A DNA stretch of 33,001 bases from Candidatus Kapaibacterium sp. (lineage in GTDB: Bacteria; Bacteroidota; Ignavibacteria; Kapaibacteriales; UBA961), in the NCBI GenBank assembly GCA_023259575.1, contig JALRHN010000003.1, positions 1-33,001 on the forward strand. Direction: 5' to 3'. Shown here in pieces: positions 1-31,618 of the stretch. The notes below the pieces were generated by a model. It had not been told where the DNA came from and made no database searches. It saw nothing but the letters and a program-made list of their open reading frames with translations. Every line of letters begins with the position of its first letter. Position 1 is the first letter of the stretch. Made by a program: the position numbers and the translations under genes.

Positions 1-315
1 AAAGTCTGTTATACCTAATTCAGTAAGTTTTTCAATCATATACTCCATTCTTTCTTTATTGTGCAATATTCCTATTGCAATTGCAAATCTACCAGGTAAT
101 TCATGAATGTTTTTTCTGATTTCATGAATAGAAAATACAGCTTCTTGATGATTGATAGATTGTACAGTACATAAAGCAATCAAACCCTTACCAGAGCTTA
201 ATAACACTCTTTCACCTATCTTTAGTCTAAGTGCTTTAGCATGTTTTACTTCATCTTGATCTATATTGATATATAAAGAATCTTCACGAAGTTTGGGAGC
301 ATATAAGCAATCCAT
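1..315 (-). CDS. rsmE: 16S rRNA (uracil-1498-N3)-methyltransferase RsmE, 3'-truncated by window edge
   Basis: This gene is absent from the ORF track because it runs off the window. Reading the minus strand from an ATG at 315 gives 105 codons, open to base 1 (MDCLYAPKLREDSLYINIDQ...). The N-terminal part matches the RsmE PUA-like domain pattern, with an early H-x-x-x-x-L-R-L segment (KHAKALRLKIGERV). It then enters the SPOUT methyltransferase domain with NKERMEYMIEKLTELGI, the typical RsmE helix before the SAM-binding knot. RsmE methylates N3 of U1498 in 16S rRNA in the 30S subunit. Only about 105 of the usual ~240 residues are visible; the knot and SAM site lie outside. It starts 13 nt after rluE, so it is probably the last visible gene of the ABC-SPFH-addB-rluE-rsmE operon and pairs with rluE as an rRNA modification enzyme. 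Confidence 0.85.
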   Translation of the reverse strand, partial: MDCLYAPKLREDSLYINIDQDEVKHAKALRLKIGERVLLSSGKGLIALCTVQSINHQEAVFSIHEIRKNIHELPGRFAIAIGILHNKERMEYMIEKLTELGITDF

Positions 316-328
316 AGTGTCTCAAAAA

Positions 329-892
329 TTAAGCAAAAATTGAATCAAATTCTTTGGAAGTTATTTCTCGCCATGTACCAATATTAATATCTTTAGGCAT
401 AAAATTTCCAATAGCTACTCGTATTAATCGTAAAGTTGGATATCCAATTGCAGCTGTCATTCTTCTTACTTGACGATTTTTTCCTTCTATCAAAGTAAGA
501 CTTATCCATGAATCAGGAATATATTTTCTGACTCTTATTGGTGGATTTCTGGGTTCTATGTCTGGATTATTGACTATTTCAGCATTCCCTGGTAAAAGCT
601 TTCTACCTTGAATGCTTAAAGTTCCTTTACGTATAGGTAATAAGTCTGAATCTTGAATAGCACCTTCTACTTGCACCCAATATGTTCTTTTATGGGCATT
701 ATCAGGATGTAATAAGACATTATTTATATGCTTTTCATCGCTTAATAATAATAATCCTTCAGAATCAGCATCTAATCTTCCAAGTGGATATACTCCTTTT
801 GGAAAATTAAAATCAGATAATGTTCTATATGAGCTGGAATCAGATGTAAACTGAGAGAGAACACCAAATGGTTTGTTAAAAGCTATAATCAT
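329..892 (-). CDS. rluE: 23S rRNA pseudouridine synthase, RluE-like
   Basis: This is a 187-residue pseudouridine synthase of the RsuA/RluB/RluE/RluF family. The catalytic motif GRLDADSEGLLLLSD is at about residues 38-52, with the family's nucleophilic Asp in GRLD. The second conserved block, LIEGKNRQVRRMTAAIGYPT, is near residues 134-153. There is no N-terminal S4 domain, since the protein begins directly with IIAFNKPFGVLSQF. This fits RluE (U2457 of 23S rRNA in E. coli) better than RluB or RsuA. It is a little shorter than E. coli RluE. The ATG overlaps the stop of the upstream AddB-like gene in an ATGA arrangement, which indicates translational coupling. The exact uridine target is inferred from family architecture. 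Confidence 0.88.
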   Translation of the reverse strand: MIIAFNKPFGVLSQFTSDSSSYRTLSDFNFPKGVYPLGRLDADSEGLLLLSDEKHINNVLLHPDNAHKRTYWVQVEGAIQDSDLLPIRKGTLSIQGRKLLPGNAEIVNNPDIEPRNPPIRVRKYIPDSWISLTLIEGKNRQVRRMTAAIGYPTLRLIRVAIGNFMPKDINIGTWREITSKEFDSIFA

Positions 893-7111: not shown

Positions 7112-8299
7112 TTAATTATACTTTTCTGTTTCTGGATGAAATGTTTTCCATGAATGCCAAAATTCTTGATAACCCTGAATATGATATAATTGTTTTCCTT
7201 GATAAGTTCCTTCTATACAATTCCCTTTGGCATCCCATTTTGAATTTGTTTCAGAATCAATTAAAAACCCATCGGCAGATTTAATAAAATGCAATTGCTG
7301 CTTGTCTATAAGTGTTGAAAATACTAGAAAAGTAGAATTATCAGATAAAACAGAAAGAATAATTGTAGTAGACCCTATTGTATCTATGATAATACGGTTT
7401 TTAAGTAGATCACTCCAATCATAAGCTTTAGAAAGATTATTCAATGTAATCCCTATAATCCAGGATTTATTTTGCCATTTATTTGGGTTCTTTCCAATCA
7501 ATGTGCTTTGCAATGTACCTTGTGCATATCCTTTTAAATGTTGATATTCTTTTTGAAAGGACACATCAGGTAACATAATTTTTGATTGAGGAAATTTATC
7601 TTTCCATGCTGAAAATGACATTTGATATATTGGGAATTCAGATAATTTTGTTCCTTTCATCGAACCAGCAACTGCCTCTCCATTAACTTGTCTCCACCAA
7701 GACCCAGTACTTTTATCTTCAAACATAGCATTGAATTGATCCATTCCTACTAATCTGAATTCTTCTAATGCACCATTTACAATTGGACTCCAAATTCTCC
7801 CTGTTCTGCATACTGTACAATATGTTATCATCACAGGAACACCTCCTATAACATCTCTAATTTGATGATGATAACCTACATATTCTAAAGGATATGCTTT
7901 AGACTCACCATTTATAGTAGTTCCTAATACTATATCATTGGATTCTAAAAGAGAATTGCTGATATCGGTAAATGCTATCGTATTGGGTTGTAAAAACATT
8001 TTGTCGGCAGACATGGAATTATGAATTATAAATGTAAAACATATATATATGATACATAATAATCCAATGATGACCTTATGTATCATACCATGAGAGCCAG
8101 TAAATAAGATATAAAGGCCAAAAATTAAAATCAGTATTCCTGCTATTCTTAATAAATAGATATGAGAATGAATAAAATATGAAAGGGATATAGAGTTTAT
8201 ATGCTGGCTTCCTGGGAATGGCATGATAAAATAAATGCTTAATATTTCTACAAGCAATAAAAATATAATGCCCAAATAGGGTAGTGCAATTAATAGCAT
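7112..8299 (-). CDS. DUF3179 domain-containing membrane protein
   Basis: The track ORF begins with TTG at 8341. I prefer the ATG at 8299 (395 aa), because the extra 14 residues need a TTG start with no ribosome-binding site; the ATG site is also weak, so the start is uncertain. The N-terminal ~100 residues hold about three hydrophobic segments (LIALPYLGIIFLLLVEILSI; LLRIAGILILIFGLYILF; KVIIGLLCIIYICFTFII). The rest is a DUF3179 domain with its hallmark MITYCTVCRTGRIW and GSWWRQVNGEAVAG blocks. The biochemical function of DUF3179 is not established. The two cysteines of CTVC look like a possible redox or metal site, which is inference. It lies just downstream of pnp but is separated from it by a strong terminator, so it probably has its own promoter. 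Confidence 0.8.
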   Translation of the reverse strand: MLLIALPYLGIIFLLLVEILSIYFIMPFPGSQHINSISLSYFIHSHIYLLRIAGILILIFGLYILFTGSHGMIHKVIIGLLCIIYICFTFIIHNSMSADKMFLQPNTIAFTDISNSLLESNDIVLGTTINGESKAYPLEYVGYHHQIRDVIGGVPVMITYCTVCRTGRIWSPIVNGALEEFRLVGMDQFNAMFEDKSTGSWWRQVNGEAVAGSMKGTKLSEFPIYQMSFSAWKDKFPQSKIMLPDVSFQKEYQHLKGYAQGTLQSTLIGKNPNKWQNKSWIIGITLNNLSKAYDWSDLLKNRIIIDTIGSTTIILSVLSDNSTFLVFSTLIDKQQLHFIKSADGFLIDSETNSKWDAKGNCIEGTYQGKQLYHIQGYQEFWHSWKTFHPETEKYN

Positions 8300-8362
8300 A
8301 TCAAATTCTATAAGTAGTTTAATAACTTTTTTAAATAACAATGTTAAAACTAACCATTATTG

Positions 8363-15972: not shown

Positions 15973-16398
15973 CTAATTAACTTTAGAGAGAGAATCTAAC
16001 TTATTATCTAATTTTTTAATTGATTCTTCTAAATTTTTGGTTAAATCTTGATACTGGGTTTTAAGATTGGCATCGTTTTCTTTTGCTTGTTTTTCTAGTT
16101 GTCCTGATAATTCAGATAAACTAGTTTCTACTCCAGATAACTCTTGCTTTAATTGTTGGATTTGTTTTTTATATCCATCAATAATCTGCTTCGTTTGCCC
16201 TTCATATTGTCCTTTAAACTTCATTGTTTGATTATGAAAACTTTGAGCCAAATTCAAAATTTGGGTTTTCATGATAGTAAGCACTTGCTTTGCTGCTGTT
16301 ATATCTGGATTGGATTTAGAATTTTGTTGAGCAAATGTTAAAGTGGAAGTGATGATCGTTACAAATAAGATCAGGATAATTCTACTAATGTTTTTCAT
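15973..16398 (-). CDS. Small exported coiled-coil protein of unknown function
   Basis: I do not recognise a family. The 141-residue protein has a clear signal peptide (KNISRIILILFVTIITSTLTFAQQ, cleavage probably after Ala23). The remainder is Lys/Gln/Glu-rich with leucine/isoleucine spacing typical of a long coiled coil, for example IDGYKKQIQQLKQELSGVET, LSELSGQLEKQAKENDA and LEESIKKLDNKLDSLSK. There are no cysteines, no obvious enzymatic motifs and no lipobox. A periplasmic scaffold or Skp/OmpH-like holdase role is possible, but nothing in the sequence proves it. The ATG overlaps the stop of the PTS IIA gene as ATGA, so the two are translationally coupled. Confidence 0.7.
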   Translation of the reverse strand: MKNISRIILILFVTIITSTLTFAQQNSKSNPDITAAKQVLTIMKTQILNLAQSFHNQTMKFKGQYEGQTKQIIDGYKKQIQQLKQELSGVETSLSELSGQLEKQAKENDANLKTQYQDLTKNLEESIKKLDNKLDSLSKVN

Positions 16399-16856
16399 AA
16401 ATCTTCTTCTTCTTTAGTAAAAAATTCAATTATTTGTTCTGGTGTATCTGCTTGTAAAATATTTTCTCTAAAGCTATCACTATTCATTAATCGTGAAATT
16501 CTGCTTAATAATCGTAAATGTGTCCCTACAGTATTTTCCCTACCAATTAACATAAAAACAATCGATACAGGTTCTTGATCTAAAGAGTTGAAATCTATGG
16601 GATGTTTAAGCGTAAGAAAAGCACCAACTGTCTCATTTATATGATTAGTTTTTCCATGAGGAAGAGCAAATCCTTTGCCTATGCCTGTTGACATAATTTT
16701 TTCTCTTTCCATCACAGCTTTACGCGCTTCATCAGGTTTTGCTAATAATCCTGCTTTTTCCAAACAATTAAGCATTGTATCTAGTACTTGCTCTTTGCTT
16801 GTAATTTCTTGTTTTAATAGTATTGCTGATGGTTTAAGAATTTCAGTTATTTTCAT
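16395..16856 (-). CDS. PTS IIA domain protein, fructose/nitrogen-regulatory (PtsN-like)
   Basis: This stand-alone 153-residue EIIA domain of the fructose/mannitol/IIA-Ntr family starts at MKITEILKPSAILL. The phosphorylated histidine is His67 in STGIGKGFALPHGKT, the family's G-I-G-x-G-x-A-x-P-H-G motif. The C-terminal blocks VSIVFMLIGRENTVGTHLRLLSRISRLM and FRENILQADTPEQIIEFF are also typical. With no EIIB or EIIC domain nearby, a regulatory (IIA-Ntr-like) role is more likely than sugar uptake. HPr and EI-type phosphodonors are not in the window. It is coupled by a 4-nt overlap to the exported coiled-coil gene, an unusual partner; classical ptsN neighbours (rpoN, hpf, rapZ) are missing here. 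Confidence 0.88.
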   Translation of the reverse strand: MKITEILKPSAILLKQEITSKEQVLDTMLNCLEKAGLLAKPDEARKAVMEREKIMSTGIGKGFALPHGKTNHINETVGAFLTLKHPIDFNSLDQEPVSIVFMLIGRENTVGTHLRLLSRISRLMNSDSFRENILQADTPEQIIEFFTKEEEDL

Positions 16857-16973: not shown

Positions 16974-19256
16974 TTAATGAACTACTTTTAATAGACATGA
17001 AGCCGAAGAAATTGGGTTATGGAATCGTACGATATACATACCATTTTCTAAACATGATATGCTATCATTAACTATTGTCATTTCACCTGAATCTGCAAAT
17101 CCATTATAGATTTCTTTTACAAATGCTCCAGTTATGGAATACAATTCAATGGAAATCTTGCCACTCAATGGATTCTTTATAGAAATATGAACAATGTCTG
17201 AAGCAGGAATTGGCAATATATTGATTGAAGCTTGATCTTTAATTATCGTATGATCTGTATTCATTGTTTGTTCAGGTATCATTTTAAACAAGAATACTCC
17301 ATGATCTGGAACGTGAGCAGAAAATGATCCTGAAAAAGTACCTACATTTTTACCTCGCCATACATCTCTAATGATATATCGTTTATTGGGATCAGAAATA
17401 TGCAATTGCTCCCAATTAATTGTTATCGTTTGATGGATGATATCATCTCTATTGAACATCCCAATTGCCAGGACATTACTATCTAATGTTTTTGCCCATA
17501 CTTCTTGCCAAATATCTTTAAAAACTCTATTTCCTTGTTTTCCTAATTTATCTTGATTTATTGATAAAACTTCTTCGTTTTTTAATAGGTTAAGAGAAAA
17601 TGAATCTAATTCATCTACATAACATGATAAAACTAATGGAGAATTTAATAAAGCCCATAAGGATACATGACTATACTGTTCTTGAGGAGATAATTGAGTG
17701 GGCCTTTTATGAATACCTGGAAGAGAATTACCTATTCTTAAAAAATCCATATCGTTCCATCCATTAAATCCAGAGTAGGCTTCTAATCCATTCTGAGTAA
17801 AACCTATTGTATTTGATACACTCCACCAATTATCTTGAATATCAGTTGTAGTTCTCCATGAATTTCCTCCGGCAGATCTAGCCCATTTCCACACATCATT
17901 ATTACCATATTGACAAATATTAAAAAAAATATCACGTGAAGAACATTGCTGTAAATAGTTTGATAATAGTTCAAATGGTCTTTTTGATTCTTTGATAATT
18001 GATGCATTATTTTGTTTCATCAATGTATCATAGATTTGTTGATAATAGCACCAATCATATTTAACAAGATCTGCACCTACAGTGCAAAAAAGTTCTGCAT
18101 CTTGCATTTCATGTCCATAAGATCCTGGCAATCGAACACACGTTAAAGGCCCAGGAGAAGAATATAATCCATATTTAAATCCTAAATTATGTAGAGAATC
18201 TCCAAGCCCTTTTAGATCGGGGAATGTAGGTGATGCTTTAAGACCAGATTTACTCTCTTGAATACTTGTATCTTGCCATCCATCGTCTACCATTATATAA
18301 TTGAATCCATAATCGGCTAAACCAGTGTTTTTAAGAGCTAAAGCTTGACTTAGTATATCTTTTTGATTGAGATATTCCCAATATGTATACCAACTAGACC
18401 AACCTAAAATTGGTGTATAACTAATGATGTCTCCAATAATTATATCAAGTTTCTTTGTTTGCGTTCCATATTGATTTGTTGCTGTAATGAGCAAAGGATA
18501 TATACCAGGTATGGATAATTGACCTGATATTATATTTGATATTGGATCATAAGTAAGCCCTTTAGGTATTGAACTTACACGTATATCAATAGGCTTTACT
18601 CCACTAACAGGAATATAATATAGGATCTGTTTTTGAGGTTTTGCACCATAACTATGAACGCTGTGAATCCTTGGGGAAAGAGGTTCAGGAGGAGTGAGAA
18701 TAATCGCCGAGTCAATGGTCCTTTTATATGGTTTTGGTATTGTGTTTTTATTCATGACAAAATAGGCATCTGCCCAATTTGCATGGTCAGAATAAATATT
18801 ATCATCTCCATTAAACACTAATAGTTCACAGAATTGCATTGAATCTAATAAGATATTGCATTCTTTTGCAGGCATACCTCTTTTCATGATGCCAGAACGC
18901 CACAATACTTTCCCATTTCCTAAAACAATAAATTCTACTGATCCTAAATCAGGAAAAATATAATCATCAATTCCTACATATGCATGAAATCTATGTGCAT
19001 TGTTGTCAATTTGTAATGTGAGTTTACTTCCAGAATGAGTTCCTAATCCTTTGCTATATGTTTTACCTGCAATGCTGATTGTATTTCCGGTTACAGAACA
19101 ATTTTTACATGGAATGCCAAAATCTTGCTTCATATCAGAGATATCAATACGAGTAATGTCTACTGTATCAAATTCTTGTGAACATAGGGAGGTATGAAGA
19201 TATAGTATAGAGAATATGATTGATAAAAATGATTTGATTAATCTTTTGATTCCCAT
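16974..19256 (-). CDS. Secreted GH27 alpha-galactosidase-like enzyme with NPCBM, Ig-like and T9SS-type sorting domains
   Basis: The protein has 760 residues. A signal peptide (about 1-26, IKSFLSIIFSILYLHTSLCS) is followed by an NPCBM carbohydrate-binding domain (about 30-170, GKTYSKGLGTHSGSKLTLQI). A short putative Ig-like module follows (about 210-275, PKGLTYDPISNIISGQL). The GH27 barrel begins LGWSSWYTYWEYL (284). The likely nucleophile is Asp401 in LVKYDWCYY and the likely acid/base Asp472 in SWRTTTDIQDNW; FNGWNDMDFLRIGN (497-510) is the GH27 barrel-end motif. A C-terminal beta domain (about 677-760, NILPIPASDIVHI ... ENGMYIVRF) resembles T9SS type A sorting signals, which fits the SprA gene in this window. 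The start overlaps the upstream fusion gene by 19 nt. GH27 also contains other specificities, so the alpha-galactosidase assignment is by family. Confidence 0.85.
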   Translation of the reverse strand: MGIKRLIKSFLSIIFSILYLHTSLCSQEFDTVDITRIDISDMKQDFGIPCKNCSVTGNTISIAGKTYSKGLGTHSGSKLTLQIDNNAHRFHAYVGIDDYIFPDLGSVEFIVLGNGKVLWRSGIMKRGMPAKECNILLDSMQFCELLVFNGDDNIYSDHANWADAYFVMNKNTIPKPYKRTIDSAIILTPPEPLSPRIHSVHSYGAKPQKQILYYIPVSGVKPIDIRVSSIPKGLTYDPISNIISGQLSIPGIYPLLITATNQYGTQTKKLDIIIGDIISYTPILGWSSWYTYWEYLNQKDILSQALALKNTGLADYGFNYIMVDDGWQDTSIQESKSGLKASPTFPDLKGLGDSLHNLGFKYGLYSSPGPLTCVRLPGSYGHEMQDAELFCTVGADLVKYDWCYYQQIYDTLMKQNNASIIKESKRPFELLSNYLQQCSSRDIFFNICQYGNNDVWKWARSAGGNSWRTTTDIQDNWWSVSNTIGFTQNGLEAYSGFNGWNDMDFLRIGNSLPGIHKRPTQLSPQEQYSHVSLWALLNSPLVLSCYVDELDSFSLNLLKNEEVLSINQDKLGKQGNRVFKDIWQEVWAKTLDSNVLAIGMFNRDDIIHQTITINWEQLHISDPNKRYIIRDVWRGKNVGTFSGSFSAHVPDHGVFLFKMIPEQTMNTDHTIIKDQASINILPIPASDIVHISIKNPLSGKISIELYSITGAFVKEIYNGFADSGEMTIVNDSISCLENGMYIVRFHNPISSASCLLKVVH

Positions 19257-21748
19257 TCACTCCATTCCTTGACATAATTGGAAAATTCTTCAGCTTTGCT
19301 ATTGGTAACATTTTCATCCATAGACTCCACATAAATCATAAATGCTGGTCTTTCTCTATCAGGCAATAACACAATCGTGCAATCTTTTTCTAATATCTTT
19401 ACTCCATCTATCAATGTTCTTTGAAGTCCTTCGCTAAATTCCATAGCTTTTCGCATAACAGTGCCTTTCATATCCCATTTGCAAGGAATTGAAATCTGTT
19501 TTTGTGCATATTTGGGTAATTCTTCATGAAGGGCAGAAAATGTATAACCTGTTAAAGCAAGCATTTCAAGTACTTTGGCCAGACTAAACATTCCGTCTGA
19601 TGCAAATAAATATTCAGGAAAAATAAATCTTCCTCTTGTATCGCCTACAAATAATACATCTTTTTGCAGGGTTGCATCCATCATTGCAGAGTGATTATTT
19701 TTAATTCTTATTACGTGAACATTATATTCTTTTGCAATAGACTCTATTTCAGAGCTTGCCAAAACAGGTACGGCAATTGAATATGGTTCATGATTTTTAT
19801 TCGACTCTAATACTAATTTAGTTACTAATGTTAATAATCGATTAGGCGGATACCAATGTCCATGAGCATCTACAACAGCAATTTTTTCTGCAGAAGCATC
19901 TATTTTTAATCCGAATTCATAATTCAATGCTTTTACTATATCACCAGTTTCTGCAGCTTCTAAATCTGTTCTTATATCAGAAAATCCCTTGATTGTATCC
20001 ATATAGCTATTAAGCGCAACTACATTTGCAGCTAATTTGCCAAGAAGGGTAGGGAATGTTACTGATGCTAAACCATTAGAATAATCCACTAATAATTTAA
20101 AATGATGTTCTTTTATTGCATCTACATTCAAAGCATCAGTAAATCTAGCTGCATAAGCCTCAGAACTTCTTTCAGGAAAAATTATGCTACCAACTTTATC
20201 ATAAGAAACTCTTTTTATATCTTCTCCAAAAAAGAAACGCTCTATTGATTTGGCCTTAGATACAGGCAAATCCCTGCCATCTCCATTAAAAAGAATTATA
20301 TCTGTTGTTTCTGGGTGACGGATAGATCTTCTGACATGGAATCCAGCAACTGCTTTACCATTTCTTAATTCTTGTCTAGCCAATGGAATTGGAGTGATTT
20401 GTAAATCATTTACTGTTATTCCAGTGCTCATTAAGCCTGCTAATAATGCTCTTTGTGTCATTCTTGATACTGCATCTGCATCTCTACTAGCAACTACAGT
20501 AACACCAGCACCTAAAGCATTGCCTATAGATGCTCCTAATTTGGCTGCAAATTCTGGATTGATTTCAAGATTAGATAATCCTGTTATTCGAGAACCTGTA
20601 AATAGTTCTCTTAACCATTTTTCTTCCTGTACAAGAGACCGTGACAATATAGCGCCTTTTTCTACATGCTTTCTTGGCCATAATTTGATATTTGGTAATA
20701 AATTGGCATCATCTCCAATTGAGCAATCTTCTGCAATAAATACATTTTCGCTTATTGTAGCATTGTTACCAATAGTAGTGCCATCACAAATAACAGCATC
20801 AGTTAATGAAGCTCCGTCTCCGATTCTTATATTATTCCATAATACACAGCCAGACATCTCTACATTATTTCCAATTTTTACATTATCTCCGATAGAGCAA
20901 TATTGTATTTTTGAGTAAGCGCCAATGCTAGTATGCTCTCCAATTACAACACTACCTTGAAGTGAAGATGTCGAATCAATATGTGAACCTTGTCCTGTAT
21001 AGGTATTCTGATTAATTGTCCCCTTAATACTTACTTTTGCTTTTCCATGCAAAATATCTTCACATGCAATTTGATATTCATTTAAATTTCCAATATCTCT
21101 CCAATATCCATTAGCAATATAGCCATATAATGGTAGGCCAAGCTTGAGCATCAAAGGGAATAAATCTTTACTAAAATCGAATTCTCTTTGAAACGGAATG
21201 AGATCTACTACATCGGGTTCTAGAATATAAATACCAGTATTTATAGTATCTGAAAATACTTCTCCCCAAGAAGGTTTTTCTAAGAATCGTGTTATTCGAG
21301 ACGATTCATCTGTCATTACAATACCATATTGCAAAGGATTTGCAACGCGAGTAAGTAATATTGTTGCTTTGGCATTCTGTTTTTTATGAAATGCTATTGC
21401 AGCTGTTAAATCAAAATCCGTTAAAACATCACCGCTTATAATAATAAAGGGTTCTTTTAACATCTCCGAAGCATTTCTTACACTGCCTGCAGTTCCATAA
21501 TCAGCGGCAGCTTGTACATAATTCATTGATATGCCAAATTCGCTGCCATCACCAAAATGAGATATAATATATTCCGGATGATAATAGAGTAAGGAAACAA
21601 TATCTGTAATAAGATGATTCTTTAATAAGTGAACTATATGTTCCATCATTGGTACATTCATTAACGGTACCATAGGTTTTGGAATGCTCATAGTTAGTGG
21701 ACGCAACCTTGTTCCAAATCCACCAGCCATTATTACTGCTTTTTTCAT
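19238..21748 (-). CDS. Sugar-1-phosphate nucleotidyltransferase (ManC/GMP-type) fused to a degenerate phosphohexomutase domain
   Basis: The protein has 836 residues. Domain 1 (1-235) is a nucleotidyltransferase with GGFGTRLRPLT (9-19), KPMVPL and the metal-site IISGDVLTD (Asp107). Domain 2 (about 240-365) is a left-handed beta-helix of hexapeptide repeats (VVIGEHTSIGAYS, CSIGDNVKIGNN). Domain 3 (about 380-836) has an alpha-phosphohexomutase fold. Its catalytic phosphoserine loop, normally TASHNP, is replaced by GFHVRRSIRHPETTD (469-483). The DGDxDR metal loop reads VVDAHGHWYPPNRL (625-638). Both active-site elements are therefore missing. Annotated relatives are called mannose-1-phosphate guanylyltransferase; the true sugar nucleotide is not determined here. 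AAAAAAGGG precedes the ATG. Downstream lies the overlapping GH27 gene. Confidence 0.87.
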   Translation of the reverse strand: MKKAVIMAGGFGTRLRPLTMSIPKPMVPLMNVPMMEHIVHLLKNHLITDIVSLLYYHPEYIISHFGDGSEFGISMNYVQAAADYGTAGSVRNASEMLKEPFIIISGDVLTDFDLTAAIAFHKKQNAKATILLTRVANPLQYGIVMTDESSRITRFLEKPSWGEVFSDTINTGIYILEPDVVDLIPFQREFDFSKDLFPLMLKLGLPLYGYIANGYWRDIGNLNEYQIACEDILHGKAKVSIKGTINQNTYTGQGSHIDSTSSLQGSVVIGEHTSIGAYSKIQYCSIGDNVKIGNNVEMSGCVLWNNIRIGDGASLTDAVICDGTTIGNNATISENVFIAEDCSIGDDANLLPNIKLWPRKHVEKGAILSRSLVQEEKWLRELFTGSRITGLSNLEINPEFAAKLGASIGNALGAGVTVVASRDADAVSRMTQRALLAGLMSTGITVNDLQITPIPLARQELRNGKAVAGFHVRRSIRHPETTDIILFNGDGRDLPVSKAKSIERFFFGEDIKRVSYDKVGSIIFPERSSEAYAARFTDALNVDAIKEHHFKLLVDYSNGLASVTFPTLLGKLAANVVALNSYMDTIKGFSDIRTDLEAAETGDIVKALNYEFGLKIDASAEKIAVVDAHGHWYPPNRLLTLVTKLVLESNKNHEPYSIAVPVLASSEIESIAKEYNVHVIRIKNNHSAMMDATLQKDVLFVGDTRGRFIFPEYLFASDGMFSLAKVLEMLALTGYTFSALHEELPKYAQKQISIPCKWDMKGTVMRKAMEFSEGLQRTLIDGVKILEKDCTIVLLPDRERPAFMIYVESMDENVTNSKAEEFSNYVKEWSEWESKD

Positions 21749-24537: not shown

Positions 24538-27500
24538 TTATCTACCGCCTGATACAGATACTTTGATATCCATACCAACCTGATATTTACTAAATCCAGG
24601 GGAAGCTGCACCCTGATTTATTGTTGTTTCATATCTCATAAAAAAGCGAGCAGTAACCCTATTACTGATGCCATATCGTGCAGAAGGTTCAATAATAATT
24701 TGAGTATTTCCATCTAATTTTTGGCCATCAGCAGATGTTAAATTTAATACATCATAAGTAGAACGTAATGTTCTTTTATATGAAGCATTTAAGGCAAATT
24801 CCATATCATTTTGCAAATCCAGACCCAATAACTTAAACTTAAATCCACGTCTATTATAATTAGCTTGAATAGTAGCATCAGTTACAGATTCACCTTGAAT
24901 TACGGATGATGTAGGTTGTAAGGTATAGTTTTGTTTGGTTGTAAATCTAAAAGATCCAGTTAATAAACCATTTAATTTAGATTCATCAAAAGTCATTTGA
25001 ATACCAAATAATGGTTCAAATCCCGATTGTATTTGCTGAGATCCAGGAATAGTACCATTATCTGTTCTAGTAGAACTTTCTTGATATGTAGATTTATAAG
25101 CATGTTCAAAAGTAACTCGTTTTGCTAATCCAGAGAATAAAGGCAGCTTTTCAACACCATCCCATCGTAAAGTCCAATTCATAGAAGGTAATACTCTTAA
25201 TATCTCTCTTGGTAAAAAACCCATAAAGTTAGTTCCAAGGCCATCTTCAAAAGAATTAGAAAGTGCGTCTCTTAAAGCTTGGTTTTGTCTTAATGTGTCA
25301 GTAGGATATAAAGCAGAAATAATTGGCTTTTGATTATTATATAATTCAATAACATGTTCTATGGAATTATTAAGTGGAGCAAAGATTAAAAATTTAGGTA
25401 AAGATAAATATGTGCGATTATAGGTTGTGCTCATTACGATATTTGTAAAACGAGAATTTCCCTCAGAATCTGTACTGTCTAACTGATTACGATTAAAACC
25501 AAATGATGATTTCCAGTTAATATCTATGGTGGCACCTGTCCACAAAGGACGATTTGTGCGGAATTCTAATTCAGATTTTTGAAAGAAATTATCTGGTAAT
25601 ATTGAGTTCTTAGGTCTGTTTCCATCATATGTTGTAAACCGTATAAAAGGAAAGCTAGAGGACGGCAATACAGAAAAACCACCATGAGGTTGTGATACCA
25701 ATCCTAATTGATATGCTGCACTTGGCCCCATAGAATTATCTTCATTCATTCCTATGATTGGACGCCAAAAATTGGTCATTCCAGTTTCGCCTAAAACTCC
25801 TTGATTGATCGAAGAATTTTCTTGTTTAAAATTCAAAGTAATTGTTTCATAATCAAAGAATATTGTCTTGAAAACTCTTCCAATAGATTGTAATAAAGTA
25901 CGATTGGAATCAATTGTTTTTGACCCAGCAGAAATACCCCACCATTTATCGGTTAATCCTTTTAGTCGGATATTACTTGTAAGCCGTATTGTATTTTGAA
26001 AAGAGGATTGTTTTACAGCATCAGATACTAAAGTGTCTCTTTGTAAAGGATTTCTCCATGTATACGTAGTAGAGAATGTACCAGTATTATCCATATAATT
26101 ATTAAGTCCGCCGATATCAGGTAATTTAGGCTTAATATTTAATGTAACTGTCTGAGAATGATTTGTGTTCTGTCCAAAATCAATTATCCTATCACCATTC
26201 ATTATAACTCTTCTTACTAAATCACTACCTTCTCTTTGTCTACCTGCATCATCTAACTCTAAAGGAACAAGAGTTCCACCTGTTGTGAATGAATAATCTA
26301 TTACAGGATTTAACAGTCCGTTTTCAGACATTCTCCATGTAAACTGAGCTTGCCTAATTGCTGCAAAATCTCTGATTACAGGGCTTGGGAAACTTAGATA
26401 TCTGCTTTTTTCTGTTACTCTAGATCTATTAAACTGAACTGATGTAGAAAAAGTAGTTGGTAAAAAGAAGATTTTCCAATCTTTATAAATACCTAAGATT
26501 GGTATATCACCAATCCATGTTAATGGCTTTACAGAAACTGAATTTGGTAATTGAACGCTATAATCAGCTTTCATTCGCCAATTCCATTTAAAGCGCTCCT
26601 CTACAACAGGAGATCGTTCATAGGTTTGCGAATAATCATAGCTAAGATTTATTTTATTGATTGTTTCTTTGATCAACCAATGATTCACCGGTATTCCAAA
26701 TTTAAAGCCGGATAATGCCCAACTATCTTGTACTCTAATAGTTTGAGATCTTCTTCTTACAGAATCGGCAACCCTTGCAGATTCAATTTCATCTCCATTG
26801 GTTCTTACTAATTCACTTTCATAAGCAGCTTTTGTAGCTGCATCAATTTTAACATCACTTTGTGCTGCAAATTGAGGATTTTCAACTAGTTCGCCATGAG
26901 TATAGGAAATTGGTATTTTCATTTCTTTTAGTTCTTTTGGTAATAATTTATCCAAAGAACCTTGCATTTGAACATTCCAATTTAATGTCTGATTTCTATT
27001 TCCAAAGCGTTCTTCTAATCTATGAAAATTAGGATTTGATTGATTATACGTGGCATTTACAGTACCTAAATCTGCTAATTTTAATTCTGCGGATCCAATT
27101 CCTGCCCAATCTGTTGAACTTTCTGGTTCAATAAGTCTTAATTCATCTACCCACATATTTGTAGAAAGATCTTCGGGGAAGCTTCCTGTTGTTGGATTTG
27201 CTATACCATATCCAACAAACTGTATTCTTGTTAAAATCGGATTCCCTTTAATGATATACTGAGTTTCTACAGGGATAGCAAATCCAGGATCAAAAACTGA
27301 TGATGTATCAATAAAGCGTTCGGATGGATCTACAGGAACTTTATTTTGGGCCGCAACTTGCGATCTTTTTTCTTTTACAGATGTTAATGTTGGTAAGTCA
27401 ATTTCTATGTCACGCCATCCTTCTAATAGGGGACGTCTTATTTCATAATAATTAGCAGAATCTAAACCAAAGCGCACAAATGCCTGTGCTTTTGGGCTTG

Positions 27501-30500
27501 CCCCATAGGGAATTAAATTTGGCATAGATCCATCGCCATGTAAAAAGAATTTTAATTTTTTATAATAAAACACATCCAAATTTCGCATAATTCGAACTGC
27601 CATCCTTTCTTGTCCGGCGGGTAGGTTTTTCACGCCTACAGATAAAGACTGTTCATTTAGGCGAACATCCTGCATTGGGTCTGGATTATTAATTTGTCTG
27701 GGGCGCTGTACTCCAGGCGGTAATGTATATTTATCCGGCAATCCACTATTTTCTTCAACACCTACATATTGAACACTTAAAATGCTATCATTGGCATTTA
27801 CATTTGGTTGATATCCATTATTTCTAATCCATTGTCCACCTGTAAATTTCCATTCTGCTACATTTAATACTATTGGTGCGCCCTTAAACCACACTCTTAC
27901 GTATTGAATATTGGAAAAGGTTGGATTTCCAACTGTTCTTGTAGGACGTCTTAAAGGAATCCTGAAAAAATACCAACCAGCCCCTTGTTTACCTTCACCA
28001 ACAATTTGGGGATTTCTTCTTGCATCTAAATCGAGATTAACTTTATAGCTAAAATAACTATTATCTAAAGCAATAGTTTGGCCATTATTATTATTCAGAA
28101 TTTCTCTATCTGGGAATTGTCCAGATTCAGCAAGAGTTGCATTATTTTCAAAATTATTATAAAACCTAAACATCGTGTCGGTTTGAAACTGCCTATCAAT
28201 CAAGAAGTTAAAGTAATAATTGTCTCTGGCAGGATCTTTTTCTTGATTAAGTGGATATGGATATGAAATGCCAGGTATAGAAGAATTCTTTTCATCTTGA
28301 TCACTGATTCCATCATATCCTACATCTTCACCTATATCTATGATATTATTTGGTATTGGACTTTCTTTGGTAATGCCATCTTCGGTATTTAAGGTTGAAT
28401 TTCCAATGACATCTTCGCTGATTTGTCCTAAATCTATCCACATTTCTGAATTAGAAAATAAGACATCGAATTTTACCACCATTTCTAGATAATCAATATT
28501 TTCTGTTTCAAAATTTGTGTTAAAAGTTGAAAATAAACGCTGAATACCACCCCAAGTTCTATACTGATTTCTTGATAAATAGTCTAAATACTTTGATGAA
28601 TCTTGTTCAAAAACCGGATTTAATCTATCTACGAAATTTGGATTTCTATTGTAAATTCCACGATATTCAGGAAAGAATCTAAGTTTTAAATCATTGATTG
28701 TTGTTAATCTGCCTCTGGTATCTCGATTTGGATATACATCTGTAATGGGAGTTTGACCCAAGAAATATTGATACCAATAGCTTTGACCTCTAAACCATGA
28801 TTCTGCTTTTGATAGTGGATCATCATATAAGGTGGAATCTTCTGGTATTGAAATATGAGACCATTGCTGAGGGGTTAATCCTAGTGAAATACTTCTTTGT
28901 GCTCCTTCAAAATCATCTACATAAGCAACTGCTGCACCATTATCAGAAGGTATATCAGAAATCCTTTTATTTGGCGTGGGTAGCATTGCTGCTACTTCCC
29001 CACGAAGCGTTAGTGTGGATTTTTCTTTCGTATCATAAAAAGGCATCGCATCTAATGCTTTTGTTAAAAAAGGTAAAGTAAGATTTAGATTACCATCAAT
29101 GCCAATCATCGTGTTTGATACTGGTTCTTCATTTACTCTAACTCTATCAAAAATCAAAGCTTGATTATAATGCATAAAAGTTAAACCAAGATTTCCGCTC
29201 CCTGATCTTCTTTTGAACACTTCCATATCTGCTCGTAAACCAAGCATTGTTCTTGTTGCAAGATTGAATAAGTCATTTTGTTCATATTCAATGCTCAGAT
29301 TAGCATTTGGTAATGATGCCCTTGGATTTGTTAATGTAACTTGTCCTGTAAAATACTCTACATAATAGTCTTGATTTTCTTTTAATGGTGAACCATCTAA
29401 TGTAACTTTTACGCTTCCTGGTGATAAATTGAATGCTCCTAAAGAGATTTTACCTCCACCAGTATTCATAGTTCCAGTCGCTTCTCCACTTATTAAAAAT
29501 CTATCTCTATCATTAGATCTTTTAGCAATTTCTACGATTTCATTATAAACTTGTGGATATCGATATCTATTGGCTATTTGTGGAGAACCTTGTGCAGCAA
29601 AATAACGAACTAATCCACTATCAAAAGGCATCCTTTCAGGGAATATTATTTCGCCTCTTACTGGATTAAAAAATGGTGATCCTTGTTGTTGATATTGAAC
29701 TGGCAATTGTGAATTTGGCGTTGTACCACCAGTACCTCCTGTATTGCCAGTATTCATTTGATTTTGTTGTTGCTGTTGTTGCGGACTCCCCAAATCGAAC
29801 ATTCCATCTGGTTTAGCTGTTCCATCTGAGTTATTTACTCTGTCAACACCAAGTATAGTAACAACTTTATCACTAGATCCTTCTAATACATCAGAAGAAT
29901 CATTATTTGCCCTCATATACCATATATTTAATTTCAAATCTGCCAGATTAACATTTGTTTGGCCGATACTAAATATATTTCTCATCTGGCGTTTCCATAT
30001 AGTAGAAAACCCAGGTTGCATATTTGGACGATATACCAATTTTAATAATAAAGTATCTTTAGGCTGTAAAGTATTAGAAATAGTTCCAAAATCAACATCA
30101 TCTGATGCATCGCTGGTAGGACCTTCTATTCTATATGCTACGCCATAGCTTCTATCTGTTTTAAGACCTGTAATTGTCAATCTTCCCAAATTCTCATCAT
30201 ATTGATAGAATTTAGGATCTAGTTTTAAATATTTTCCTCTTTCTGTAAATCCCGCTACAGGAGGAATGCTTTTTAATGAAGCTGGATAATAAGAGGGGAT
30301 TGCTCCTACACGATTAATTGCATTTAAGGTATCAATTAAAATTCCTTCTGCTGCCTGCGATGCTTGTTGAACATCTACTGTCGATTCATAAACTTCTAGT
30401 AATTTAATTCGATTATATCGAGCTTGAGGAGTATTTGGCAATAATGGTATCTGAGCCTTGTAATAAGTATCCCAGATTCCAAAATATGCAGTATCTAAAA

Positions 30501-31569
30501 AGAAATTCTTTTTATCATAATCATATGCATTTAGTCTGAATGGTTGTCTTAAAGTACCTCCGCCAGATACATTTACTCGTTTTGATTCGCCGCGTCTTTG
30601 TGATACAACTGTTTTGAGATATACAGGACCAAATTGGAAATCGGTTCTTATTCCAAATAAGCTTTGGCTTCCCCCAATAAGAGTAGATGGTGTTGGAAAT
30701 TGAATATTTCCTACTTCAACTCTTTTAAAAATATCATCATCATTACCAGAAAAACCAACATTAAATCTATTATTTAAATCAAATTGCTGCCTGGTATTCC
30801 AGTCTACTCCCAGCTTTAACTTATCACCAATCTTTCCTGTGACATTTAAATTTATATCTTGCGTAAAAAATGGTCCAGATTGCGTTTGCCCAAATGGAGA
30901 AGCTGTCCCCATTTTTTGAGAATCCCATTGCCATCCTGCCCGAACATTAACATCGCCTGCTACATTGATACTAATTTCCGGTTTACCAAATATGCTTGAA
31001 ATTGGATTGGGTGGAACTGGAATACTTAATCCAGTAGCTTGACTTAAAATACCAGCTATATCAGAAGAAGACATAGCTTTTTTTAAATCATATGATTTAA
31101 CCATTGAATCCCATATTCTGCCTCTCTCTTTTTCTTTTCTGAGTGCTAGATATGTATCTAATTGTATGCTGTTTCCTGCAGACATAGATATATCATTAAA
31201 GGATTCTGTCTTCCTTACATCGGTAAGAGTAGAATCGATTGTCACATTGATATCATAACCAGGCGGAATTTTTAATGAATTGAATCTGTCTTTGCCGAAA
31301 TTTCCTCTGAAATTATTTTTGGGGACAAAAATTCCAGATAATGGTAATGGTTGATTGGCTGATGAGTCTTCGGAAACTTGATATTCAAGATAAGAAAAGG
31401 AGGGCCTTAAAAAATAGCTATTGCTTATTAATAGTGCAGCTCTAATTGATGTAAGTACTAAATCACTGCTTTCTAATTCTGCACTATGCACTGCATAAGT
31501 GTTCATGCTCAATAGATATATTGAACCTAGAATTATAGAGAGAAAACATTGACCTATCGTTCGCTTCAT
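24538..31569 (-). CDS. sprA: SprA (SOV), outer-membrane translocon of the type IX secretion system
   Basis: I place the start at ATG 31569 (2343 aa) rather than the track's TTG at 31596, because the ATG gives a proper signal peptide (MKRTIGQCFLSIILGSIYLL) and is preceded by GAAAGA. SprA forms the very large outer-membrane beta barrel through which T9SS cargo crosses to the cell surface. Recognisable parts are an early DLKKAMSSSDIAGILSQATG segment, repeated beta-strand stretches such as NLNVTGKIGDKLKLGVDWNT, YFRIPLRRPTRTVGNPTFSNIQYVRVWF, and a C-terminal barrel ending in a short strand (YQVGMDIKVSVSGG). Length matches the family (about 2300-2400 aa). A Gln/Gly/Thr-rich stretch lies near residues 593-622. 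The gene follows the choice-of-anchor gene and precedes a GT9 gene. Two T9SS-like cargo proteins occur in this same window. Confidence 0.95.
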   Translation of the reverse strand: MKRTIGQCFLSIILGSIYLLSMNTYAVHSAELESSDLVLTSIRAALLISNSYFLRPSFSYLEYQVSEDSSANQPLPLSGIFVPKNNFRGNFGKDRFNSLKIPPGYDINVTIDSTLTDVRKTESFNDISMSAGNSIQLDTYLALRKEKERGRIWDSMVKSYDLKKAMSSSDIAGILSQATGLSIPVPPNPISSIFGKPEISINVAGDVNVRAGWQWDSQKMGTASPFGQTQSGPFFTQDINLNVTGKIGDKLKLGVDWNTRQQFDLNNRFNVGFSGNDDDIFKRVEVGNIQFPTPSTLIGGSQSLFGIRTDFQFGPVYLKTVVSQRRGESKRVNVSGGGTLRQPFRLNAYDYDKKNFFLDTAYFGIWDTYYKAQIPLLPNTPQARYNRIKLLEVYESTVDVQQASQAAEGILIDTLNAINRVGAIPSYYPASLKSIPPVAGFTERGKYLKLDPKFYQYDENLGRLTITGLKTDRSYGVAYRIEGPTSDASDDVDFGTISNTLQPKDTLLLKLVYRPNMQPGFSTIWKRQMRNIFSIGQTNVNLADLKLNIWYMRANNDSSDVLEGSSDKVVTILGVDRVNNSDGTAKPDGMFDLGSPQQQQQQNQMNTGNTGGTGGTTPNSQLPVQYQQQGSPFFNPVRGEIIFPERMPFDSGLVRYFAAQGSPQIANRYRYPQVYNEIVEIAKRSNDRDRFLISGEATGTMNTGGGKISLGAFNLSPGSVKVTLDGSPLKENQDYYVEYFTGQVTLTNPRASLPNANLSIEYEQNDLFNLATRTMLGLRADMEVFKRRSGSGNLGLTFMHYNQALIFDRVRVNEEPVSNTMIGIDGNLNLTLPFLTKALDAMPFYDTKEKSTLTLRGEVAAMLPTPNKRISDIPSDNGAAVAYVDDFEGAQRSISLGLTPQQWSHISIPEDSTLYDDPLSKAESWFRGQSYWYQYFLGQTPITDVYPNRDTRGRLTTINDLKLRFFPEYRGIYNRNPNFVDRLNPVFEQDSSKYLDYLSRNQYRTWGGIQRLFSTFNTNFETENIDYLEMVVKFDVLFSNSEMWIDLGQISEDVIGNSTLNTEDGITKESPIPNNIIDIGEDVGYDGISDQDEKNSSIPGISYPYPLNQEKDPARDNYYFNFLIDRQFQTDTMFRFYNNFENNATLAESGQFPDREILNNNNGQTIALDNSYFSYKVNLDLDARRNPQIVGEGKQGAGWYFFRIPLRRPTRTVGNPTFSNIQYVRVWFKGAPIVLNVAEWKFTGGQWIRNNGYQPNVNANDSILSVQYVGVEENSGLPDKYTLPPGVQRPRQINNPDPMQDVRLNEQSLSVGVKNLPAGQERMAVRIMRNLDVFYYKKLKFFLHGDGSMPNLIPYGASPKAQAFVRFGLDSANYYEIRRPLLEGWRDIEIDLPTLTSVKEKRSQVAAQNKVPVDPSERFIDTSSVFDPGFAIPVETQYIIKGNPILTRIQFVGYGIANPTTGSFPEDLSTNMWVDELRLIEPESSTDWAGIGSAELKLADLGTVNATYNQSNPNFHRLEERFGNRNQTLNWNVQMQGSLDKLLPKELKEMKIPISYTHGELVENPQFAAQSDVKIDAATKAAYESELVRTNGDEIESARVADSVRRRSQTIRVQDSWALSGFKFGIPVNHWLIKETINKINLSYDYSQTYERSPVVEERFKWNWRMKADYSVQLPNSVSVKPLTWIGDIPILGIYKDWKIFFLPTTFSTSVQFNRSRVTEKSRYLSFPSPVIRDFAAIRQAQFTWRMSENGLLNPVIDYSFTTGGTLVPLELDDAGRQREGSDLVRRVIMNGDRIIDFGQNTNHSQTVTLNIKPKLPDIGGLNNYMDNTGTFSTTYTWRNPLQRDTLVSDAVKQSSFQNTIRLTSNIRLKGLTDKWWGISAGSKTIDSNRTLLQSIGRVFKTIFFDYETITLNFKQENSSINQGVLGETGMTNFWRPIIGMNEDNSMGPSAAYQLGLVSQPHGGFSVLPSSSFPFIRFTTYDGNRPKNSILPDNFFQKSELEFRTNRPLWTGATIDINWKSSFGFNRNQLDSTDSEGNSRFTNIVMSTTYNRTYLSLPKFLIFAPLNNSIEHVIELYNNQKPIISALYPTDTLRQNQALRDALSNSFEDGLGTNFMGFLPREILRVLPSMNWTLRWDGVEKLPLFSGLAKRVTFEHAYKSTYQESSTRTDNGTIPGSQQIQSGFEPLFGIQMTFDESKLNGLLTGSFRFTTKQNYTLQPTSSVIQGESVTDATIQANYNRRGFKFKLLGLDLQNDMEFALNASYKRTLRSTYDVLNLTSADGQKLDGNTQIIIEPSARYGISNRVTARFFMRYETTINQGAASPGFSKYQVGMDIKVSVSGGR

Positions 31570-31618
31570 TCTTTCAACAATAAATAATGCAACCAAAACA
31601 GATTTGTACTGCTAGTTG

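Follow-up and report, generated by a model that had tools for sequence, protein, structure and literature searches.

Why should a sugar-phosphate nucleotidyltransferase carry, on the same polypeptide, a phosphohexomutase-fold domain whose active-site loops are not those of a mutase? The question is raised by one gene in the window (the whole stretch of 33,001 nucleotides analysed here; Table 1). The annotation given to such fusions is sugar-phosphate or mannose-1-phosphate nucleotidyltransferase, usually with the label "bifunctional". That label is contradicted by the reading argued for here, in which the mutase half is very probably a pseudoenzyme that has been kept for a regulatory or structural role.

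Table 1. Features of the fusion gene and its neighbours, in window coordinates, with residue numbers of the fusion protein.
Feature	Position	Residues	Strand	Basis or remark
836-aa fusion: nucleotidyltransferase, left-handed beta-helix and phosphohexomutase-fold domain (very probably a pseudoenzyme)	19238..21748		-	ORF, Pfam, AlphaFold models
NTP_transferase domain, catalytic residues intact	21053..21742	3-232	-	PF00483
Left-handed beta-helix (hexapeptide) region	20702..21010	247-349	-	PF25084/PF00132
Phosphohexomutase-fold domain, all four active-site loops altered	19274..20602	383-825	-	PF02878/02879/02880, Foldseek
Former catalytic Ser loop FHVRRSIRHP	20312..20341	470-479	-	three alignments
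Former metal loop DASAEK	19883..19900	617-622	-	canonical: DGDADR/DPDADR
VDAHGHWYPP, VDExG turn downstream of the metal loop	19844..19873	626-635	-	alignments
Former sugar-binding loop GDTRGR	19628..19645	702-707	-	canonical: GE(E/G/M)SG(H/G)
Former phosphate-binding loop LPDRERP	19346..19366	795-801	-	canonical: RxSxTEP
Alpha-galactosidase-like secreted protein (NPCBM, melibiase, Por secretion tail)	16974..19256		-	Pfam
PtsN/fructose-type PTS EIIA (PTS_EIIA_2), 153 aa, active-site His67 in GFALPHG	16395..16856		-	PF00359, TIGR00848

Pfam places three PGM_PMM domains within residues 383-746 of the fusion, and this multi-domain fold is a constant of the family (PF02878/79/80 in 51-52 of 52 fused members). 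The beta-helix is the least conserved region of the protein, with a mean identity of 36% against 69% for the nucleotidyltransferase. The closest named relative comes from a Chlorobiota OPB56 genome and has a C-terminal domain 96% identical to that of the window. A sequencing or assembly artefact was ruled out, as loops of identical type recur in 99 distinct relatives.

The register of the loops was obtained with phmmer against solved mutases, with MAFFT together with 13 canonical mutases (mostly from the fusion's own order) and with profile-profile alignment in hhalign, and the three methods give one common register for all loops. The original prediction held that a TASHNP-type phosphoserine loop had been replaced by FHVRRSIRHP. 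The loop was rightly identified and its motif is indeed lost, but the serine is not, since all three alignments place Ser475 opposite the catalytic serine. The segment taken for the metal loop, VDAHGHWYPP, proved to be the wrong site; it aligns with a VDExG turn that also occurs in canonical mutases, and its DAHGH positions belong to that turn. The true metal loop is DASAEK, in which the first Asp is kept, the second has become Ser, the third Glu and the Arg Lys. As the motifs of the sugar loop (GEESGG, now GDTRGR) and of the phosphate loop have gone too, the departure from a canonical active site is greater than first claimed.

This departure is shared by the whole family. The comparison covered the 99 distinct fused relatives, from the Kapabacteria/Ignavibacteria phylum, and four fusions of other phyla, from Streptomyces, Nonomuraea and Sulfuricurvum; all four canonical motifs are absent from 99/99 and 4/4 of these, respectively, and present in 12-13 of the 13 canonical controls. 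T[AG]SHN occurs in none of the 99 but in 12 of 13 canonical mutases (the fusion has VRRSIRHP, with only Ser475 retained), and the same counts hold for SGTEP or SNTEP, the core of the R-x-S-x-T-E-P phosphate loop. In the sugar loop, the Glu and Ser of G-E-x-S-G are gone from every one of the 99. The second Asp of D-x-D-x-D-R is likewise gone from all 99 and the third is Glu in all 99, and the metal triad is reduced across the family to D/E/N/Q-x-G/S/A-x-E. I also considered whether another acidic triad might lie at some other place in the domain, and rejected this: D.D.D occurs in 2/99 fused relatives and 0/4 fusions of other phyla, versus 13/13 canonical mutases. At the position of Ser475, 95 of the 99 have Ser and four have Asn; the four fusions of other phyla have Thr, Thr, Val and Lys there. 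Since Ser475 is so widely kept, and D617 is kept in 64/99, some residual chemistry is possible on sequence grounds.

The altered loops have also acquired residues of their own. H471, R473 and E621 are invariant in all 99 relatives of the phylum, so that the suggestion that the "HVR" version might be a family feature is borne out by the alignment. Outside the phylum, R473 recurs in two of the four fusions; H471 is missing from the Actinomycete fusions and occurs only in that of Sulfuricurvum.

In a maximum-likelihood tree, the fused C-terminal domains, those of the Actinomycete fusions included, form one clade against the 13 canonical mutases on a branch with support of 100/100, although two of the canonical rows and the Sulfuricurvum row sit on long branches. 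Throughout this clade, nucleotidyltransferase, left-handed beta-helix and mutase-fold domain form a single polypeptide. The Actinomycete and Campylobacterota fusions (Streptomyces WP_327713799/WP_331730321, Nonomuraea, Sulfuricurvum WP_013449919) share the domain order and the loss of motifs but differ in that their C-terminal domains are only ~25-27% identical, their loops read, for example, LRTTP and DPVGER, and they lack the link to an EIIA gene described below. Because a single clade without the motifs spans three phyla, the loss would most simply predate the split of their fused proteins. Horizontal transfer of the fusion between phyla is a possible alternative to such an early loss.

Is the domain, then, simply decaying? 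Its dN/dS is 0.017-0.070 among close pairs (0.070 between the window fusion and a 95%-identical neighbour), similar to that of the nucleotidyltransferase domain and usually below that of the beta-helix. The serine, metal and sugar loops are conserved above the domain average, and the phosphate loop no more than that average. These ratios and loop conservation rule out passive decay or a relic domain. Furthermore, the fused family has 41 near-invariant positions that differ in canonical mutases. Under such strong purifying selection, and with invariant residues of its own, the domain evidently has some function.

The fold has been kept, as originally supposed. AlphaFold models built on 43 relatives have a mean pLDDT of 91.3 and a pTM of 0.89, and in Foldseek the model of the C-terminal domain matches 9du5, an archaeal phosphoglucomutase, at a TM of 0.89; archaeal phosphohexomutases as a group match at 0.87-0.90, and the full-length model behaves likewise. 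The closest solved folds, PhPMM (1wqa) and Thermococcus PGM (9du5), are 28-29% identical to the domain but differ in being unfused and in having canonical TASHNP, DGDADR, GEeSG and SGTEP loops.

With all four motifs replaced across the family, the claim that the domain no longer transfers phosphate is very likely correct, and I hold the loss of mutase chemistry with high confidence. With less confidence, though as the better bet, I suggest that the domain controls or scaffolds the nucleotidyltransferase. The pseudo-mutase domain would have been recruited as a module governing how its partner assembles or how active it is, and the former catalytic cleft would have been rebuilt around H471, R473 and E621, with an R473-E621 salt bridge possibly standing in place of the phosphoserine and Mg2+.

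A plainer version of this idea, that catalysis was lost and the domain now only holds the nucleotidyltransferase in its oligomeric architecture and receives no signal, is a rival that I consider unlikely. It fits the loss of every ligand-contacting loop of a canonical mutase, nucleotidyltransferases with beta-helices are commonly oligomeric, and the structural neighbours include VTC1 and GMPPA/GMPPB. However, an inert scaffold has no need of an old cleft whose serine, metal and sugar loops, with their three new invariants, are conserved beyond the rest of the domain, and it does not account for the conserved linkage to EIIA. In both GMPPA/GMPPB and VTC1/KONJAC, a nucleotidyltransferase is controlled by a catalytically dead partner. 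These pairs (7d72, 8yre) are analogous in how they work only, for their dead partner is a paralogue of the nucleotidyltransferase and not a mutase fold. The GlmM-CdaA complex (7olh, 9g69), in which a mutase fold binds a nucleotidyl cyclase, is an analogy of the same kind between different proteins.

Alternatively, the rebuilt cleft may have found a different reaction or metabolite, for example a nucleotide sugar bound as a feedback sensor. The new invariants in the old catalytic loops, the other invariant Arg and His residues and the strong purifying selection would all suit such a neofunctionalised domain, but it contains no recognisable catalytic or nucleotide-binding motif and the Actinomycete fusions lack H471. 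I regard this reading as improbable. It is very improbable that Ser475 and a rearranged metal site still support phosphate transfer, which would make the protein a true mutase and pyrophosphorylase, for although Ser475 is aligned with the catalytic serine and nearly always kept, and the similarly built SCO1388 of Streptomyces coelicolor has been read as apparently bifunctional (PMC5982138), the metal triad is reduced, the R, S and T of the phosphate loop and the E and S of the sugar loop are lost, other members have Asn, Thr, Val or Lys instead of the serine, and canonical mutases are encoded separately in this and other fusion-bearing genomes.

The comparison with SCO1388, which is likened to the fusion in architecture from its published description only, deserves a closer look. 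Its authors state that it "appears to be" bifunctional, with phosphomannomutase activity, but disrupting the gene produced no phage-resistance phenotype and had no further effect in double mutants, from which they concluded that its contribution to GMP activity is small (PMC5982138). Another screen linked SCO1388 to actinorhodin production (PMC6585502). In the literature open without subscription (subscription papers were outside the search), I found no direct paper on the fused family or on a phosphohexomutase pseudoenzyme, and none in which the mutase half is recognised as one. Here, then, is a widespread pseudoenzyme domain that, judged by its sequence, is dead in at least three phyla and that is under strong selection in the window's phylum, where selection was measured.

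The other half of the protein should be active, because its signature residues are invariant: G9, G10, T13, R14, K24, D107, E157, K158, N170 and D218 are unchanged in 95 full-length fused relatives and the four fusions of other phyla, and the same set retains GGxGTRLxPxTxxxPKP, the metal Asp, F(L)EKP and the second metal Asp. As to its substrate, the "ManC-type" label of the original prediction is provisional, and the closest solved relative of the N-terminal half is the cyanobacterial UDP-glucose pyrophosphorylase tlr0611 (8x7s; 35% identity). This CugP protein resembles the nucleotidyltransferase and beta-helix of the fusion, but its solved chain of ~400 residues stands alone, whereas the fusion has an added mutase-fold domain. 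That sll1558 might be a fused protein is unsupported, as a paper names sll1558 CugP and the structure of tlr0611 comprises a chain of only some 400 residues. CugP is itself annotated as a mannose-1-phosphate guanyltransferase although it has UDP-glucose pyrophosphorylase activity (PMC7401256). None of the NCBIfam models shown for the fusion exceeds its cut-off (NF052502 scores 293.6 bits against its own cut-off of 440), and a separate ManC-like gene of the same genome also falls below the cut-off of its best match (TIGR01479, 273.7 bits). This genome further encodes an RmlA_long-like enzyme and a GlmU-type transferase, and a complete sister genome additionally encodes RmlA. GalU was not recognised; the window's genome is 86% complete, and gene absences rest mainly on complete relatives.

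What might such a control module respond to? A PtsN-type EIIA gene is the neighbour most strongly conserved beside the fusion, occurring in 47 of the 78 loci that could be evaluated: in 41 it lies directly downstream on the same strand, and in six it lies one gene further, beyond an alpha-galactosidase gene, as it does in the window. That intervening gene, which in the window overlaps the fusion by 19 nt, stands between the two only in these six close relatives. The active-site His of EIIA is retained in all 47. In a sample of the class, 22 of 26 fusion-bearing genomes have EIIA within 200 bp of the fusion and 23 have it within 2.5 kb; it was near the fusion in none of six fusion-bearing genomes outside the class, and none adjoins the Streptomyces, Nonomuraea and Sulfuricurvum fusions. 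Mere co-occurrence across the phylum was discarded as uninformative, as EIIA_2 is present in 150/198 genomes and is widespread also where the fusion is absent; only positional linkage is informative.

The eight genomes checked, including that of the window, contain a single copy of EIIA_2 together with EI, HPr and HPr kinase; neither a PF02378 EIIC nor an EIIA-Man was found in them, the search being limited to those families. A set of EI, HPr and EIIA without a PF02378 permease looks like a regulatory relay, and its conserved place beside the fusion suggests control of the fusion. I therefore offer, tentatively and as the most speculative step of the mechanism, that in the Kapabacteria/Ignavibacteria line the single PtsN-type EIIA might bind the pseudo-mutase domain, whereby a PTS relay free of sugar permeases would control nucleotide-sugar synthesis and the supply of nucleotide sugars would follow PEP and carbon status through EI, HPr and EIIA. 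In Salmonella, EIIANtr binds and directly inhibits GlmS, depending on the phosphorylation state of EIIANtr (PMC5024086). Although the proteins differ from the fusion, EIIA there acts on a sugar-precursor enzyme, and with this precedent it is plausible that a sugar-nucleotide enzyme could be controlled directly. As EIIA is not adjacent in other classes and phyla, control by the PTS would be neither the ancestral role of the domain nor the original reason for the fusion, and could hold only in the lineage that has the linkage. If true, it would couple the supply of envelope precursors to PEP and carbon status; in any case, EIIA is a concrete first candidate for a partner.

In one relative (G192, C11:15709-16822), EIIA adjoins HPr kinase and not the fusion, whose contig ends ~100 bp downstream. 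Genes resembling hisS and PAS/histidine-kinase genes lie downstream of the fusion in about one quarter to one third of the loci (for example L083 7845-9278 and L071 7776-10124). The fusions in records L066, L098 and L108 are labelled as Desulfobulbaceae, Bradyrhizobiaceae and Armatimonadetes but are 49-54% identical to this family, and the labels look wrong. Finally, the window also encodes a DUF3179 protein (7112-8341) and, near the fusion, a SprA-like protein of 2352 aa (type IX secretion/gliding; 24538-31596).
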